Below, one piece after another: positions 37,113-46,420 of a stretch of DNA of 49,667 nucleotides. The notes below the pieces were generated by a model. It ran no database searches. It saw only the letters and a list, made by a program, of their open reading frames with translations, and was not told the origin of the DNA. The position numbers were made by a program, and so were the translations under genes. Positions within the stretch are counted from its first letter, which is position 1. The number at the start of each line of letters is the position of its first letter. Source of the DNA: Rhodospirillales bacterium (lineage in GTDB: Bacteria > Pseudomonadota > Alphaproteobacteria > Dongiales > Dongiaceae); the NCBI GenBank assembly GCA_009885795.1, contig VFKA01000015.1, positions 1 to 49,667 on the forward strand. The letters run 5' to 3'.

Positions 37113-37862
37113 TTAGCTTTTTCGCTCGGCGTTGACGATGGCCATCATCTCAACTATGGCGACGGCGCCGGGGATAAGGCGGTCGCCGACGATGAACGCG
37201 GGCGTTCCCGTGATCTTGAGCGCGCCGGCGAGCTCGTTGTTGCGCCGGATCATCTCGGCGATGGCGGGATCGGCCATGTCTTTTCGCAATCTCTCGACGT
37301 CGATCCCCAATTCGCCGGCGATGGCCAGCACCGTGTCGTTGCCGAGCTGGCCCTTGTGCGCCATCAGGGCGACGTGAAAGTCGCGGTACTTTCCCTGCCG
37401 CTGCGCCGCCAACGCCGCGGTGGCGGCGAACTCCGATTCCGGCCCCAGGATCGGGAACTCCTTGAACACGATGCGCACATTGCCGTCGGCCTCGAGCGCG
37501 TCGATGAATGCCTTGGCCATCGACTTGCAGTAGGGGCAGCGGTAGTCGAAGAACTCCACCACCGTGATATCGCCGTCGGGATTGCCGGCGACGGGCGCCG
37601 CCGGATCGTTGACGAGAGCGTCCTTGTTGGCGATGACCGCCGCTTGTTGTTCCGATTCGCCCGACGCCTGTTGGCGGGCTTCCATGGCGCGGACCGAATC
37701 GAGGATCACCTCCGGATGGGCCATGATGTAGTCGTGAACGAGCTTCTCGATCGCCTGCTCTTGGGCCGGCGACAGCGCCTCCTGCGCCGTGGCGGCAAGG
37801 GGCATCAACACCATCGCCCCGATGAGGGCGGCGGTCCTGCAAAATCGAAGTGCCCGCGTCAT
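37113..37862 (-). CDS. DsbA family thiol oxidoreductase (exported)
   Basis: A 249-residue periplasmic thioredoxin-fold protein. The signal peptide spans about residues 1-27 (ending PLAATAQ). A short helical linker follows, then the DsbA-type domain with CPYC at about 109-112. A cis-proline segment GTPAFIVGDRLIPG is near the C-terminus. The arrangement, with an N-terminal dimerisation-like helix, resembles Com1/BdbD-type proteins. I chose the ATG at 37862 since GAGG lies nine bases upstream; an in-frame ATG at 37877 has none. It follows the M48 protease gene in the same direction, and the two could act together in envelope protein quality control. Confidence 0.9.
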   Translation of the reverse strand: MTRALRFCRTAALIGAMVLMPLAATAQEALSPAQEQAIEKLVHDYIMAHPEVILDSVRAMEARQQASGESEQQAAVIANKDALVNDPAAPVAGNPDGDITVVEFFDYRCPYCKSMAKAFIDALEADGNVRIVFKEFPILGPESEFAATAALAAQRQGKYRDFHVALMAHKGQLGNDTVLAIAGELGIDVERLRKDMADPAIAEMIRRNNELAGALKITGTPAFIVGDRLIPGAVAIVEMMAIVNAERKS

Positions 37863-37904
37863 GGCCGATATCCTCATCCGAAGGGGTGAACAATGACGCC
37901 GATC

Positions 37905-39251
37905 CTAACCCGCTCCGGCGCCGGCGGAACCCAAAATATCGTTTGCCCGCAACCAGCCGGATGTCCCCTCGGGCAATTGCTGCAAGGCGCGCTCGGCCTG
38001 TTCCCGGGCTTCCTTGCGATTGCCCCGTGCCATCGAGGCCTCGGCGAGCGCCAAGGCCGCCATCCCGAGCTGACCGTCGCGCCCATAGGCGACCGCGAGC
38101 AGCCGCCAAGCCGGCGGATAGCGCGGCTCGCGAGCGGTAACTTGTTCAAGAAGAACGATGGCTTTCTGGTTCTGAACCGAGTCCTCGAGCGCGACTTGCG
38201 ACTGCGCAAAGGCGAACTGAATCAACGGCTCGTTCGGTGCCAGCGCCGCCGCATTCCCGTTCTCGATCAGCGACTCGGGGATGCGCCCATGTTCGTATAG
38301 CATCTGGCCTTTCAATTCATGGAAGTACGCGTCTTTCGGATTCTCGGCGATCAAGGAATCGATCAAGGGTATGGCCGTGCCAAGATCGCTCGCCCGATAA
38401 TAGGCGATGGCGCGCGCATAGCGGGCATCGAGGCCGGTGTTGGATTCCGGATAGCGGCGCAGGGTCTCCGCCAAGGGTTCGATGAACCCGACCAGCTTCG
38501 CGACGGCGCGGCGCATGGCGATCTCGCGGCCGGGGCGCTCGGGAACGTCGGTGAAGGGCGATACGGCGAGGTGCTGCCTGACGGCCTCCAGCCGCTCCGC
38601 GCTCAAGGGGTGCGTGCGCAGATAGGGATTCTGCAGGCCCGCCATCAGCACGTCCTGGTGCTGCAAGACGATGAGATTGTCGGCCATGCCTTTCGCCGAC
38701 TGTCCTGTTGCATCGAGCAGTTGCAGGGCCGCCTGATCGGCGGCCGATTCCTGCTGGCGGGTGAACTGCAGCATCGACTGTTGCGCCATTGCCTGGCCGG
38801 CGCCGACGATGGCCGTGCCGGCGCCGGCTTGGCCGCCGACCATGGCGGCGCCGACGCCAAGGACGAACCCGATGATCGATTCGATCGACGCGGTCTCCAT
38901 GGCCTCCTGACCTTGAATGAGGTGGCCGCCGGCGATATGGCCGGTTTCATGCGCGATCACGCCTATGAGTTGTCCCGGCGATTCGCTGCGAACGATGAGT
39001 CCGGTGTGCAGGAACAGGTTCATCCCGCCGGCGACGAAGGCATTGAATCGGTCGTCCTTGACGAGATAGATACGCACGCTCTCGGGGTCCAGCCCGGCGG
39101 CCTCGAACAGTGGCGCGGAAAAATCGGCGATGGTACGCTCGATCTCGGCGTCGCGAATGTATCCGGGCCGGTCGTTGTCCGCGCTCGCGGGTGTGGCGCC
39201 GGCCAGCACCATCGCCCCAATGTAGAGAAGCCCAATGAAACGTGTGAGCAA
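37905..39251 (-). CDS. M48 family metalloprotease with TPR repeats (BepA-like)
   Basis: A 448-residue exported protease. A signal peptide covers about residues 1-24 (ending TPASA). The HETGH zinc site is near residue 100 and the third ligand is in QQESAADQAAL. The C-terminal half is a series of tetratricopeptide-like helix pairs (about residues 270-430). BepA of E. coli degrades misassembled outer-membrane proteins. The reading frame starts at a TTG (39251) with no clear ribosome site, and its first codons overlap the start of the divergent lipoprotein gene. The signal peptide supports a start near here. Confidence 0.9.
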   Translation of the reverse strand: MLTRFIGLLYIGAMVLAGATPASADNDRPGYIRDAEIERTIADFSAPLFEAAGLDPESVRIYLVKDDRFNAFVAGGMNLFLHTGLIVRSESPGQLIGVIAHETGHIAGGHLIQGQEAMETASIESIIGFVLGVGAAMVGGQAGAGTAIVGAGQAMAQQSMLQFTRQQESAADQAALQLLDATGQSAKGMADNLIVLQHQDVLMAGLQNPYLRTHPLSAERLEAVRQHLAVSPFTDVPERPGREIAMRRAVAKLVGFIEPLAETLRRYPESNTGLDARYARAIAYYRASDLGTAIPLIDSLIAENPKDAYFHELKGQMLYEHGRIPESLIENGNAAALAPNEPLIQFAFAQSQVALEDSVQNQKAIVLLEQVTAREPRYPPAWRLLAVAYGRDGQLGMAALALAEASMARGNRKEAREQAERALQQLPEGTSGWLRANDILGSAGAGAG

Positions 39252-40884
39252 GGTAATGATCCAAGGATTGTATGCGGAAACTGGGCGTCACGGGTTCTGG
39301 TGTCAACGTCTCTTTTCGCTGGCGATCGCGCTGGCCCTGGCGTCTTGCGGCCCTACCGCGCCGGTCGGCATCATCGGCAGCGTCGAGGGTTTTGCCGGTG
39401 CCGTCGCCGCCGACGAGCCGCGCGCGGCGACCATTGCCCGCGACGTGCTGTCGGCGGGCGGTACCGCCGCGGACGCCGCGGTGGCGCTCTATTTCGCCAT
39501 GGCGGTGACGCTGCCCTCTTCCGCCTCGCTGGGCGGTGGCGGCGTATGCATCGTGCACGACCCCGAGAACCGGGTGACCGAAGCCATCGATTTCATGCCG
39601 CGGCCGGCCGCGGCCGGGCGCGTCGGCATACCCTCGGTGGCGCGCGGCATGGCGGCGCTCCATGCCCGTTACGGTCGCTTGCGCTGGGAGCAGTTGCTGG
39701 TGTCGGCCGAAAACCTGGCGCGCTTCGGCACGCCGATGAGCCGCGCGCTGGCGCGCGAGGTGGCGACGGCCGGGGACGCCCTGCTGGCCGATCCGAGTAC
39801 CCGGCGCGTGTTCACCGCCGAGGACGGGACCTTGCTGGATGAAGGCGATCCGTTGAAGCAGCCGGAACTCGCCAGCGTCCTTCAACAGATCCGCCAGAAA
39901 GGCGCCGGGGAACTTTACAGCGGCGTGGCCGCGCGCACGCTGGCGCAAGCCGCGGAATCGATCGGCGCGCCGCTGACGATCGCCGATCTGCGCGCGAGCA
40001 TCCCGCAATGGCGCGAAACCGTGCAGGTGCCCTGGGGCGACAATATTCTGCACTTCGCGCCGCCGCCCGCTTCGGGCGGTTTGGCCGCGGCCGAGCTCTT
40101 CCGGATTCTGACCGAAGCCGGCGACTTCGCCGCCGCATCGGCGCCCGAGCGCGCCCATCTCTTCGTCGAGGCGGCCAAGCGCGTGTTCGTCGATCGCGAG
40201 CGCTGGATGGCACCGGATGGCGGCGCCAAAGAACCGCCCGCCACCGTGGCGTCGGGGGACCGGGCGGATGCGTTGATGGCGACTTACGATTCGAACCGGG
40301 CGACGCCGGTCGAGACGTTGCAGCCGGGCTTGGCGGGCCGCCCGGAAAACCCCTGGGCCGCGAGCTTCGTGGTCGCCGACCACGATGGCAACGCCGTCGC
40401 GTGCAACGTGACCATGAACGAGCTCTTCGGAACCGCAAGGATGGCGCCGGGCACCGGAATCTTGCTGGCGCCCGCGCCGAACGCACGCGGGGCCGGCGCG
40501 ATATCGCTCGGGCCGGTCATCATGTCGAACACGCCGAATGGCGGATTCTATTTCGCCGGCGCCGCGTCCGGCGGCGGGACCGCGATCTCCGCCTTGGCGC
40601 GGGTCATGGTCGGCGTGCTCGACGCCGACGAATCCCTCGACGACGCCATGCGGGCGCCGCGGGTTCATCATAACGGCTTTCCGGATATCGCCTTCCACGA
40701 ACCGGGCGAGGATCCGGCGGCGCTCGCGGCGCTTGCCGAGCGCGGCCACCGGGTCGAGGAGCTCGGCATCATCGGCCGCGTCGAGGCCATCTGGTGCCCC
40801 GATTCCTTGCAAGGGAATGAATCGACCTGCAAGGTCGCGACCGACCCGCGCGTGGATGGGCTTGCCGTCGTCCTGTCGGAGTAA
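39235..40884 (+). CDS. Gamma-glutamyltransferase-like lipoprotein lacking the catalytic threonine
   Basis: A 549-residue member of the gamma-glutamyltransferase family (Ntn hydrolases). A lipobox ALASCG places a modifiable cysteine at residue 38, so it is probably an outer- or inner-membrane lipoprotein. True enzymes self-cleave before a threonine in a TTH motif, which then acts as nucleophile. Here the aligned positions are Ala375-Ala376-Ser377, just before FVVADHDGNAVAC. The SPGG-type loop reads AASGGG. It is therefore unlikely to cleave or act in the usual way, although the nearby serine might do so. The N-terminal lines before the lipobox are variable; an ATG at 39256 is an alternative start that avoids overlap with the M48 gene. 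Confidence 0.85.
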   Translation: MKRVSKVMIQGLYAETGRHGFWCQRLFSLAIALALASCGPTAPVGIIGSVEGFAGAVAADEPRAATIARDVLSAGGTAADAAVALYFAMAVTLPSSASLGGGGVCIVHDPENRVTEAIDFMPRPAAAGRVGIPSVARGMAALHARYGRLRWEQLLVSAENLARFGTPMSRALAREVATAGDALLADPSTRRVFTAEDGTLLDEGDPLKQPELASVLQQIRQKGAGELYSGVAARTLAQAAESIGAPLTIADLRASIPQWRETVQVPWGDNILHFAPPPASGGLAAAELFRILTEAGDFAAASAPERAHLFVEAAKRVFVDRERWMAPDGGAKEPPATVASGDRADALMATYDSNRATPVETLQPGLAGRPENPWAASFVVADHDGNAVACNVTMNELFGTARMAPGTGILLAPAPNARGAGAISLGPVIMSNTPNGGFYFAGAASGGGTAISALARVMVGVLDADESLDDAMRAPRVHHNGFPDIAFHEPGEDPAALAALAERGHRVEELGIIGRVEAIWCPDSLQGNESTCKVATDPRVDGLAVVLSE

Positions 40885-40904
40885 GTTGGGCGGAGTCATC
40901 GAGA

Positions 40905-42068
40905 ATGGTCCTCAAGGCGTCGCGGCGGAGTCAAATCCCGCCGTTCCATGCGATGGAGGTTCTGCGTGCCGCGAATCTTCGCGCGGCGGCGGGCGAAACG
41001 GTCTTTCATCTCGAATTGGGCGAACCCGGCGGCGGCGCGCCGGGACCGGTGATCGAAGCGGCCCGCCGGGCCTTGAGTGAATCCTATCTCGGTTACACCG
41101 AGGCGCTTGGGTTTCCCGCCTTGCGCGCCCGCATCGCGCGCCACTATGCCGAAACCCATGGCGTTCCTTGCGAGGAATCCCGCGTCGTCGTGACGACAGG
41201 CTCGTCTGGCGCTTTCATGCTGGCCTTCCTCGCCGCCTTCGATGCCGGCGACCGGGTCGGCCTCGCGGCACCCGGCTACCCGGCTTATCGCAACATCCTC
41301 ATGGCGCTGGGCGTCGAGCCGGTGTCGATCCCGGCCGGCCCGGAGACGCGCTTTCAGTTGAGCGTCGGGCTTCTTGAAGGCTTGGCCGGGCGGCTCGCCG
41401 GGGGGCAGCTCGATGGTCTTATCGTGGCGAGCCCCTCCAATCCGGCGGGGACGATGCTGGACGAGGACGAGTTCAAGCGTATCGCCGCCTATTGCGCGGC
41501 CAAGGGCATCCGGCTCGTTTCGGACGAAATCTACCATGGCATCACTTATGGCCGGCGGGCGGTGAGCGCGCTGGGGCTCGATCCGCATGCCTTCGTCATC
41601 AACGGTTTTTCCAAGTACTTCGCCATGACCGGCTGGCGGCTCGGCTGGATGGTGGTGCCGTCGGACCTGGTGCGTACGGTCGAATCCCTGGCGCAGAATC
41701 TCTACATCTCGCCGCCCGCGCTATCGCAAGTCGCGGCGCTGGCGGCGTTCGACTGCCGGGCCGACCTCGAAGCCAATGTCGCGCGTTATCGGCGCAATCG
41801 CGATCTGCTGCTGGCGGAACTGCCGAAGGCGGGGTTCATGAGCTTCGCGCCCGCGGACGGCGCGTTCTATCTCTATGCCGATGTTTCGGCGCTGACCGAT
41901 GACAGCGACGATCTGTGCCGGCGCATGCTGGCGGAGGCCGGCGTCGCCGCGACGCCGGGCAAGGACTTCGACGCGGCGCGCGGGCACCGTTACGTGCGGT
42001 TCTCGTATGCGGGAGCCTCGGAAACCGTCGCGTCCGCCGCGAAACGGCTGATCGCCTGGCGGCGATAG
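40905..42068 (+). CDS. Class I/II PLP-dependent aminotransferase
   Basis: A 387-residue fold type I aminotransferase. The PLP lysine is in INGFSKYFAMTGWRLGW. Substrate- and cofactor-binding motifs include VASPSNPAGTMLD (asparagine) and VSDEIYHGITYG (aspartate and tyrosine). YLGYTEALGFPALRARIARHY is the usual opening block. It resembles the aspartate aminotransferase branch, but the substrate is not determined by sequence. It begins 20 bases after the GGT-like lipoprotein gene, in the same direction, and converges on rne with a seven-base gap. Confidence 0.9.
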   Translation: MVLKASRRSQIPPFHAMEVLRAANLRAAAGETVFHLELGEPGGGAPGPVIEAARRALSESYLGYTEALGFPALRARIARHYAETHGVPCEESRVVVTTGSSGAFMLAFLAAFDAGDRVGLAAPGYPAYRNILMALGVEPVSIPAGPETRFQLSVGLLEGLAGRLAGGQLDGLIVASPSNPAGTMLDEDEFKRIAAYCAAKGIRLVSDEIYHGITYGRRAVSALGLDPHAFVINGFSKYFAMTGWRLGWMVVPSDLVRTVESLAQNLYISPPALSQVAALAAFDCRADLEANVARYRRNRDLLLAELPKAGFMSFAPADGAFYLYADVSALTDDSDDLCRRMLAEAGVAATPGKDFDAARGHRYVRFSYAGASETVASAAKRLIAWRR

Positions 42069-45205: not shown

Positions 45206-46420
45206 ATGATGACACGCCTATCGGCCTGTATCGTCGCGATTGTTTTATACTCTGTCGCCGCAATCGCGCAGCAGCGCCCGGAGGTTCTGGACGTGCGCCT
45301 GGGCGAACAACCTGGCGTGACCCGGGTAGTTCTCGATATGTCCAGTGCGCCGGAGTACCGCGTCTTCGCGCTTGCCAACCCCTATCGCCTGGTCATCGAC
45401 ATGACCGAGGTCGTTTGGCGCTTGCCGCCTGGGCGCTCGCCGGCTGGCGTCGGGTCGGTCGAATCGCTGCGTTACGGCCTGTTCGCGGTTGGCACGTCGC
45501 GGGTGGTGCTCGATCTGCGCAACCCGGTCCGAGTCGCCAAGGCCGCCATCTTGCCCGGAACCCAATCGGTGCCCGTGCGCTTCATGGTCGATCTGGCGCC
45601 GGTCGATGCCATCGCCTTCGCGGCGGTACTGCAGCAGGGGCCGATCATATCCTCCGCGGCAATGTTGGCGGCGCCGGCGGAACCCGCCCTGCTTCCGCCG
45701 ACGAAGCCTGGCGACAAGCCGGCGGGGGCCAAGCCCATCATCGCCATCGATGCCGGGCATGGCGGCGTCGATCCCGGCGCCATCGGCACCCGTGGCACGG
45801 TGGAAAAGGACATCACTCTTGCCTTCGCCAAGGAACTGAAGCGCCAACTCGAGGCGAGCCATCGCTACAAGGTGGTGCTGACACGCGGCAAGGACGTGTT
45901 CCTGCGCCTGCGCGACCGCATCGCGCTGGCGCGCGAGGCGGGGGCGGACCTGTTCGTTTCCCTCCACGCCGATTCCCACAAGACTAACGGCCTGCGCGGG
46001 GCCTCGGTCTATACCCTTTCCGAGCAGGCCTCCGACACCGAGGCCGAGGCGCTCGCCGCCAAGGAAAACAAGTCCGACCTGATCGCCGGCATCGACCTTT
46101 CCAATGAAAACGAATTGGTGGCCAATATCCTCATCGACCTCGCCCAGCGCGAGACCAAGAACCTTTCGGTCCGCTTCGCCAACATGCTGGTGGCGGAATT
46201 GCGCAAGGATACGGCCCTGTTGCGCAACACCCACCGCTATGCCGGCTTTGCCGTCCTCAAGGCGCCCGACGTGCCCTCGGTCCTGATCGAACTCGGCTAT
46301 CTCTCCAGCGCCAAGGACGAAGCGCTGCTGCGCTCGCCCGATATGCGCGGCAAGCTCGCCAAAGGGGTCCACCGGGCCATCGACGCTTATTTTCGATGGC
46401 GCGAGGAGTTGAAGACTTGA
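45206..46420 (+). CDS. amiC: N-acetylmuramoyl-L-alanine amidase with AMIN domain
   Basis: A 404-residue periplasmic amidase that separates daughter cells by cleaving stem peptides from peptidoglycan. A signal peptide covers about residues 1-21. An AMIN targeting domain follows (about 25-130). The Amidase_3 zinc domain covers about 178-400, with IDAGHGGVDPG, VEKDITL, FVSLHADSH and the catalytic glutamate in PSVLIELGYLSS. An alpha-helical insert between SLHAD and the end, containing SDTEAEALAAKEN, probably blocks the active site until an EnvC-type activator binds. The gene is upstream of mrcA by 34 bases. Confidence 0.95.
   Translation: MMTRLSACIVAIVLYSVAAIAQQRPEVLDVRLGEQPGVTRVVLDMSSAPEYRVFALANPYRLVIDMTEVVWRLPPGRSPAGVGSVESLRYGLFAVGTSRVVLDLRNPVRVAKAAILPGTQSVPVRFMVDLAPVDAIAFAAVLQQGPIISSAAMLAAPAEPALLPPTKPGDKPAGAKPIIAIDAGHGGVDPGAIGTRGTVEKDITLAFAKELKRQLEASHRYKVVLTRGKDVFLRLRDRIALAREAGADLFVSLHADSHKTNGLRGASVYTLSEQASDTEAEALAAKENKSDLIAGIDLSNENELVANILIDLAQRETKNLSVRFANMLVAELRKDTALLRNTHRYAGFAVLKAPDVPSVLIELGYLSSAKDEALLRSPDMRGKLAKGVHRAIDAYFRWREELKT

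Follow-up and report, generated by a model that had tools for sequence, protein, structure and literature searches.

Comparison of GGTL with described gamma-glutamyltransferases

The closest described relatives of the protein analysed here are the bacterial gamma-glutamyltransferases (GGTs; E. coli GGT, MEROPS T03, PF01019). Its gene lies on a stretch of 49,667 nucleotides from a Rhodospirillales bacterium (contig VFKA01000015.1, assembly GCA_009885795.1), here called the window, and encodes a predicted GGT-like lipoprotein that we designated GGTL. GGTL shares with bacterial GGTs the whole fold, the structural glycines, the equivalents of Thr409 and Asn411 and, mostly, the oxyanion glycines, but it lacks the Thr-Thr-His (TTH) nucleophile motif, Arg114 and the proline of the SPGG loop. 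It also differs from them as a predicted lipoprotein with four extra cysteines, probably uncleaved, which has a conserved locus of its own. The GGT fold is also common to the GGTL model and to CapD, HpxW, LmbA and a Thermoplasma GGT-related protein (Z 24.8–41.6), which are active threonine-nucleophile enzymes or uncharacterized. The best structural matches of GGTL were two precursors, the T391A mutant of the E. coli enzyme (2e0w) and the T399A mutant of the enzyme from B. licheniformis (4y23), both of which carry alanine at the nucleophile position. These are, however, engineered point mutants in which the remaining active site is intact, whereas GGTL lacks much of the catalytic set. In E. coli GGT, the T391A substitution abolishes both autoprocessing and activity, according to PMC8062742, and this loss is also given as a published mutation effect in PMC6769717. 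Another inactive hydrolase fold conserved in the alphaproteobacterial envelope is that of DipM of Caulobacter, a LytM-domain regulator (PMC10336132). GGTL differs from DipM in fold and locus, and partners are reported for DipM. No report of an inactive bacterial GGT lipoprotein was found in the open-access literature, most subscription journals lying outside this search.

The GGTL open reading frame (ORF) contained no internal stops, and its sole Pfam match was G_glu_transpept. The best sequence match in the PDB was also 2e0w (1.1e-49, HMMER). Identity to 41 canonical GGT rows was 27–33%, and the score against the NCBIfam equivalog TIGR00066 (219.1 bits) was below the cut-off of 357.85 bits. 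The 25 members of the GGTL family alignment matched only two NCBIfam families, TIGR00066 and PRK09615, and no relatives of GGTL were found among phage (PHROGs) or defence (PADLOC) families. As judged from these sequences, the GGTL family would form a pseudoenzyme branch of the known GGT fold family, homologous to GGT but not placed with the enzyme by the tests that define it. Pfam and NCBIfam match GGTL only to GGT models, so that a role in glutathione metabolism could be wrongly inferred; such a role is contradicted by the disappearance of the catalytic set throughout the family.

Family-wide loss of the catalytic residues

The initial annotation of this DNA had reported Ala-Ala-Ser at residues 375–377 in place of TTH, together with an altered SPGG-type loop, and both readings were borne out. 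GGTL residue 375 aligned to the residue-391 position of 2e0w in HMMER, and alignment by MAFFT with 69 canonical GGTs placed the A-A-S of GGTL opposite T-T-H, while the loop reads ASGG. In the canonical GGTs the three columns of the motif were nearly invariant (T in 69/69, T in 68/69 and H in 69/69). The GGTL family was represented by 129 rows, which gave 94 distinct members after removal of repeats; one row (L201) was excluded because its spacing check failed, and two fragments were also left out. Position 375 in these 94 members was occupied by A (32), S (28), G (19), T (7), Q (3), F (2) and E, R or W (one each), and histidine was never found at position 377. The same held for 22 further loci (L240, L245 and L247–L266, of which L254 repeats L035, L245 includes a run of N and L258 is an interrupted copy), with His at position 377 in 0/22 and Thr at position 375 in 3/22. 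Exact AAS was present in only 8/94 members. Thus, what is conserved among the orthologues is the loss of TTH, not the AAS triplet itself. A threonine shifted into the nucleophile place was rejected as an explanation: none occupies this position in GGTL, and the counted rows were ungapped from 375 to 390.

The loss was not limited to the nucleophile motif. Arginine at the R114 position was present in 68/69 canonical GGTs compared with 5/94 family members (four of the 89 non-Arg entries being gaps), and the SPGG proline was kept in none of the 94. The serines of PPPSSGG were lost in the family, with the structural glycines retained, and further near-invariant GGT residues were gone, among them an Asn and a Phe in the columns of GGTL residues 98 and 104. 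In the columns of D433 and the substrate serines S462/S463, which lie in a gappy part of the alignment, the window reads A (D433), I and S (S462 and S463). Apart from the cysteines described below, positions specific to the family were D60, E61, P62, R137, E159 and R220.

The first survey covered 61 genomes around the window, of which 50 gave a match, canonical GGTs included. Among the best 30 places compared, the window included, the other places were 28–58% identical to GGTL over the matched part, and TTH was found in none of them. Named genomes were also scanned; at least 548 loci matched, and the best 80 of these comprised 11 members of the GGTL family, 69 canonical GGTs and no intermediate. 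All 11 were from Alphaproteobacteria (Roseomonas, Neoroseomonas, Reyranella, an Acetobacteraceae metagenome-assembled genome, Rhodospirillales/Rhodospirillaceae and unclassified metagenome-assembled genomes). Counted by hand, GGTL is present in at least 93 of the 289 genomes sampled from the class (64 with a best E-value below 1e-91 and 29 weaker, the motifs of all being read), a search in which members weaker than those counted may have been missed. TTH loss was read in about 45 family codes (hand count). A search of 397 genomes at 1e-91 gave 10 matches, all in the same class. Since the share of other classes among the 397 genomes is not given and weak members escape this threshold, the confinement of GGTL to Alphaproteobacteria should be regarded as provisional.

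A quick tree was built from 40 family and 54 canonical rows; in it, a branch with SH-aLRT support of 100 separated all family rows from the rest, and the end branches of the family were long. No intermediate combining the family cysteines with TTH was found among the 129 family rows. An alphaproteobacterial group of GGTs with a DYRP motif was considered as the ancestor of the DFLPR motif; this was not supported, as its nine rows were scattered among the canonical GGTs. These results indicate that GGTL belongs to a distinct alphaproteobacterial family and did not arise as an isolated mutation. Since the whole orthologous family shares the replacement of TTH, it is more than chance.

Predicted fold, lipobox and cysteine pairs

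The AlphaFold2 model of GGTL, based on 53 sequences, had a predicted local distance difference test score (pLDDT) of 92.8 and a predicted template modelling score (pTM) of 0.92. Nearly the same elements were obtained with 12 family members alone (pLDDT 87.8, pTM 0.90), indicating that the predicted fold did not depend on the canonical rows. The structure closest to the model was the E. coli T391A precursor 2e0w (Z 51.4, root mean square deviation 1.9 over 476 residues, Foldseek E-value 5.6e-41), followed by the uncleaved B. licheniformis T399A precursor 4y23 (Z 45.4), although this ranking is confounded by the deposition of mature GGTs as split chains. Together with the Pfam match, the retention of the GGT fold in the model agrees with the initial identification of this protein as a GGT homologue.

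The lipobox with Cys38, also noted in the initial annotation, reads LASC; lipobox and signal peptide were assigned by eye. Aspartate directly after the lipobox cysteine was present in 6/88 members. The four additional cysteines fall into two candidate pairs. Among 208 non-fragment sequences, Cys105 and Cys390 were both present in 129 (a number that includes repeats), both absent in 79 and never found singly. Both residues served as entry criteria for the 94-member set, so that their presence in 94/94 is circular and this cross-table is the fair count. Because Cys105 and Cys390 were gained only jointly, a disulfide between them is probable. Counted from T391 in the 2e0w alignment, Cys390 occupies the position of E. 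coli GGT Val406. Cys521 and Cys532 were separated by 10 residues in 70/94 members, and this usual spacing suggests a second probable disulfide. A naturally shortened GGTL of 392 aa, encoded on the minus strand, was found at L226 in genome G088, in which the lipobox, the GGxC and VxC motifs and the C-terminal cysteine pair are intact.

GGTL as a candidate pseudoenzyme

The active site of the enzyme relatives has been lost, and the function of GGTL is therefore probably to bind, not to catalyse. On balance, we consider it likely that GGTL is an uncleaved, lipid-anchored and disulfide-stapled pseudoenzyme, a binding or scaffold lipoprotein of the envelope that carries out no gamma-glutamyl transfer. 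In this mechanism, GGTL would be exported and anchored through the lipidated Cys38 to a membrane, most likely the outer membrane. It would not cleave itself, and would persist as a single chain shaped as the unprocessed GGT precursor, held together by the predicted Cys105–Cys390 and Cys521–Cys532 disulfides, to act as a scaffold or as a ligand-binding lipoprotein. If so, GGTL would be a naturally occurring equivalent of the T391A precursor, and a widespread class of environmental bacteria would possess a lipoprotein of the envelope not described before, encoded among genes for outer-membrane and peptidoglycan biogenesis. The cysteine pairs, lipobox and locus provide a simple rule for re-annotation of the family and clear targets for mutation.

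Several observations weigh against this interpretation. Part of the catalytic apparatus is mostly retained in the family: in a 40-member subset, the positions of the oxyanion glycines G483 and G484 were Gly in 36/40 and 29/40, respectively, the Thr409 equivalent was Thr in 29 and Ser in nine, and the Asn411 equivalent was present in 31/40. Threonine occurs at the nucleophile position in 7 of the 94 members and 3 of the 22 further loci, and two members, L168 (G242) and L182 (G239), combine Thr at 375 with Arg at the R114 position, so that residual chemistry is possible in some members. The proposal is weakest for these Thr375 members, some of which, with L168 and L182 as the best candidates, could keep chemistry. 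Furthermore, lipidation and disulfides are predictions from sequence.

The retained residues also bear on an alternative, in which GGTL is still an enzyme that relies on another nucleophile (Ser or Thr in the neighbourhood of 375–377, Thr393 or a cysteine), possibly without self-cleavage. This alternative, which would suit Ser377 of the window GGTL, the Thr or Ser at position 393 in 86/94 members, the oxyanion glycines, the occasional Thr375 and the presence of Cys390 in every member (Cys390 having been an entry criterion), appears unlikely to us. Ser, Thr or Cys was found at positions 375, 376 and 377 in 35/94, 51/94 and 40/94 members, respectively, and at none of the three in 14/94, indicating that no such residue is conserved there; the serine-based reaction that the initial annotation had kept as an option was thus not supported. 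Moreover, the family has lost Arg114, the proline of SPGG and the serines of PPPSSGG, and Cys390, lying at the Val406 position and always accompanied by Cys105, fits a structural disulfide better than a nucleophile.

Gene organization around GGTL

The positions of GGTL, its diagnostic residues and the neighbouring genes are summarized in Table 1. The divergent BepA-like protease and the downstream aminotransferase had both been correctly described in the initial annotation. The aminotransferase is probably co-transcribed with GGTL. Because an ScsC_N domain is present at its N-terminus, the DsbA-family neighbour may be an oligomeric ScsC-type disulfide isomerase rather than a plain DsbA.

Table 1. 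Coordinates of GGTL, its diagnostic residues and neighbouring genes in the window
Feature	Position	Strand	Remarks
GGT-like lipoprotein (GGTL)	39235..40884	+	549 aa as listed; PF01019 2e-81
Lipobox Leu-Ala-Ser-Cys, Cys38	39337..39348	+	Cys in this column in 90/94 distinct members
Cys105	39547..39549	+	After GGGG motif; probable disulfide partner of Cys390
Met121	39595..39597	+	Position of substrate-binding Arg (R114 in E. coli GGT)
Ala375-Ala376-Ser377	40357..40365	+	Position of E. coli GGT Thr391-Thr392-His393 nucleophile motif
Cys390	40402..40404	+	Strand after lost nucleophile; pairs with Cys105 in co-occurrence table
Thr393	40411..40413	+	Retained counterpart of E. coli Thr409; Thr 66/94, Ser 20/94
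ASGG for SPGG, oxyanion loop	40564..40575	+	Ser445 for proline; both oxyanion glycines present in GGTL
Cys521	40795..40797	+	93/94 members; probable disulfide with Cys532
Cys532	40828..40830	+	94/94 members
DsbA-family protein with ScsC_N domain	37113..37877	-	PF01323 2.1e-27; PF18312 5.2e-12
BepA-like M48 metalloprotease with tetratricopeptide repeats	37905..39251	-	Divergent; PF01435 2.3e-28; NF052400 BepA 162 bits, below cut-off
Pyridoxal-phosphate aminotransferase	40905..42068	+	20 bases downstream of GGTL; PF00155 2.5e-58
AMIN/Amidase_3 amidase	45206-46420		PBP1A follows in window

We compared this arrangement at 45 family loci, the window being excluded and several of the misses representing contig ends. 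The M48 protease was divergent next door at 41/45 loci, a DsbA-like protein was near GGTL at 40/45, and the aminotransferase was downstream on the same strand at 37/45. RNase E was within reach at 20/45 and the AMIN/Amidase_3 amidase was found at 19/45. One locus thus combines an outer-membrane assembly protease and a disulfide enzyme with an amidase and a synthase of peptidoglycan, which suggests a task in the envelope, but this gene order is old and may have no functional meaning. As a tentative extension, GGTL may be an old alphaproteobacterial factor for envelope assembly, in which the GGT fold was stripped of catalysis to leave a binding module, lipid-anchored and stapled by disulfides, for example for gamma-D-Glu peptidoglycan stems, lipopolysaccharide or an outer-membrane protein under assembly. 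If this were true, the family would add a pseudoenzyme branch from bacteria to the Ntn-hydrolase/GGT superfamily, retained even in a 0.9 Mb genome in which no true GGT was found.

Of 33 genomes chosen because they probably lacked GGTL, 31 gave a match to the M48 protease query. The M48 locus was read in 20 such genomes: GGTL was absent in 19, the twentieth carrying a shortened copy, and DsbA was near M48 at 17/20. In the 19 loci without GGTL, the protease stood at neighbour distance from the aminotransferase in 10, from RNase E in seven and from neither in two. The empty slot between M48 and the aminotransferase or RNase E shows that a single place in an old gene order either holds GGTL or has lost it. 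In the other direction, seven GGTL genomes (four whose locus lacks M48 and three of the same family code), in all of which the GGTL motif was read, gave no M48 match; the query had matched the 31/33 genomes and 6/6 genomes in another search as positive controls. Both M48 without GGTL and GGTL without M48 are therefore seen, and the M48 protease is not an obligate partner of GGTL. Loci L037, L090, L108 and L139 (from Roseomonas, Neoroseomonas, Acetobacteraceae and G042) carry GGTL and a DsbA-like protein, the BepA-like protease not being found in those genomes.

These results bear on the proposal that GGTL serves the BepA-like M48 protease and its DsbA-like neighbour as their dedicated partner, adaptor or inhibitor when outer-membrane proteins of the LptD type are assembled. 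The conserved neighbourhood of M48 and DsbA is in its favour, the cysteines of GGTL would suit a Dsb substrate, and in alphaproteobacteria the evolutionary rate of yfgC/bepA covaries with those of lptD and bamB, as described in PMC10883770. Nevertheless, protease and GGTL each occur without the other, DsbA staying near M48 at most loci from which GGTL is absent, and the synteny may be mere ancestry. We therefore regard a dedicated partnership as doubtful.

The start of GGTL in the window is uncertain. As listed, the ORF shares 17 bases with that of the divergent protease, and the true start may therefore lie downstream of 39235, possibly at the ATG at 39256. A scan of 38900–41000 detected no sigma-70-type promoter. 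It gave two overlapping terminator-like sites within the coding region, compared with an average of 1.4 in shuffled sequence.

True GGTs and selection on GGTL

The window genome encodes two more PF01019 proteins, one of which has a TSH nucleophile motif and SPGG. GGTL could accordingly be imagined to regulate or titrate the true GGT of the genome, or to compete for its substrates. This is very improbable, as GGTL has lost Arg114 and was the sole PF01019 protein found in three of the five small genomes tested (G167, 0.9 Mb in 50 contigs; G086; G239), a true GGT being present beside GGTL in the other two (G107 and G198). The GGTL of G167 (L240, on G167:C25) is kept in a genome rated complete; the adjoining M48 gene is cut by the contig end, and a true GGT was not found.

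The dN/dS (ratio of non-synonymous to synonymous substitution rates) of GGTL was 0.073–0.182 in six pairs, which share genomes and are not independent, and that of the neighbouring genes was 0.051–0.217. GGTL is under purifying selection; the six pairs showed neither a dN/dS close to 1 nor frequent frameshifts. This result, with the family-wide loss of TTH, supports the earlier suggestion of selection on a new role over decay. That GGTL is a decaying pseudogene or an isolated mutation is hardly credible and was rejected at the family level, although single copies do decay: the long branches of family members in the tree, the copy broken by a stop codon in G070 and the much shortened copy in G088 would fit decay, whereas the low dN/dS, similar to that of the neighbours, the same loss in so many family codes and the near-invariant cysteines argue against it. 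The broken copy in G070, at L258, is split into two ORFs, and the order DsbA-M48-GGTL-aminotransferase is intact around it.

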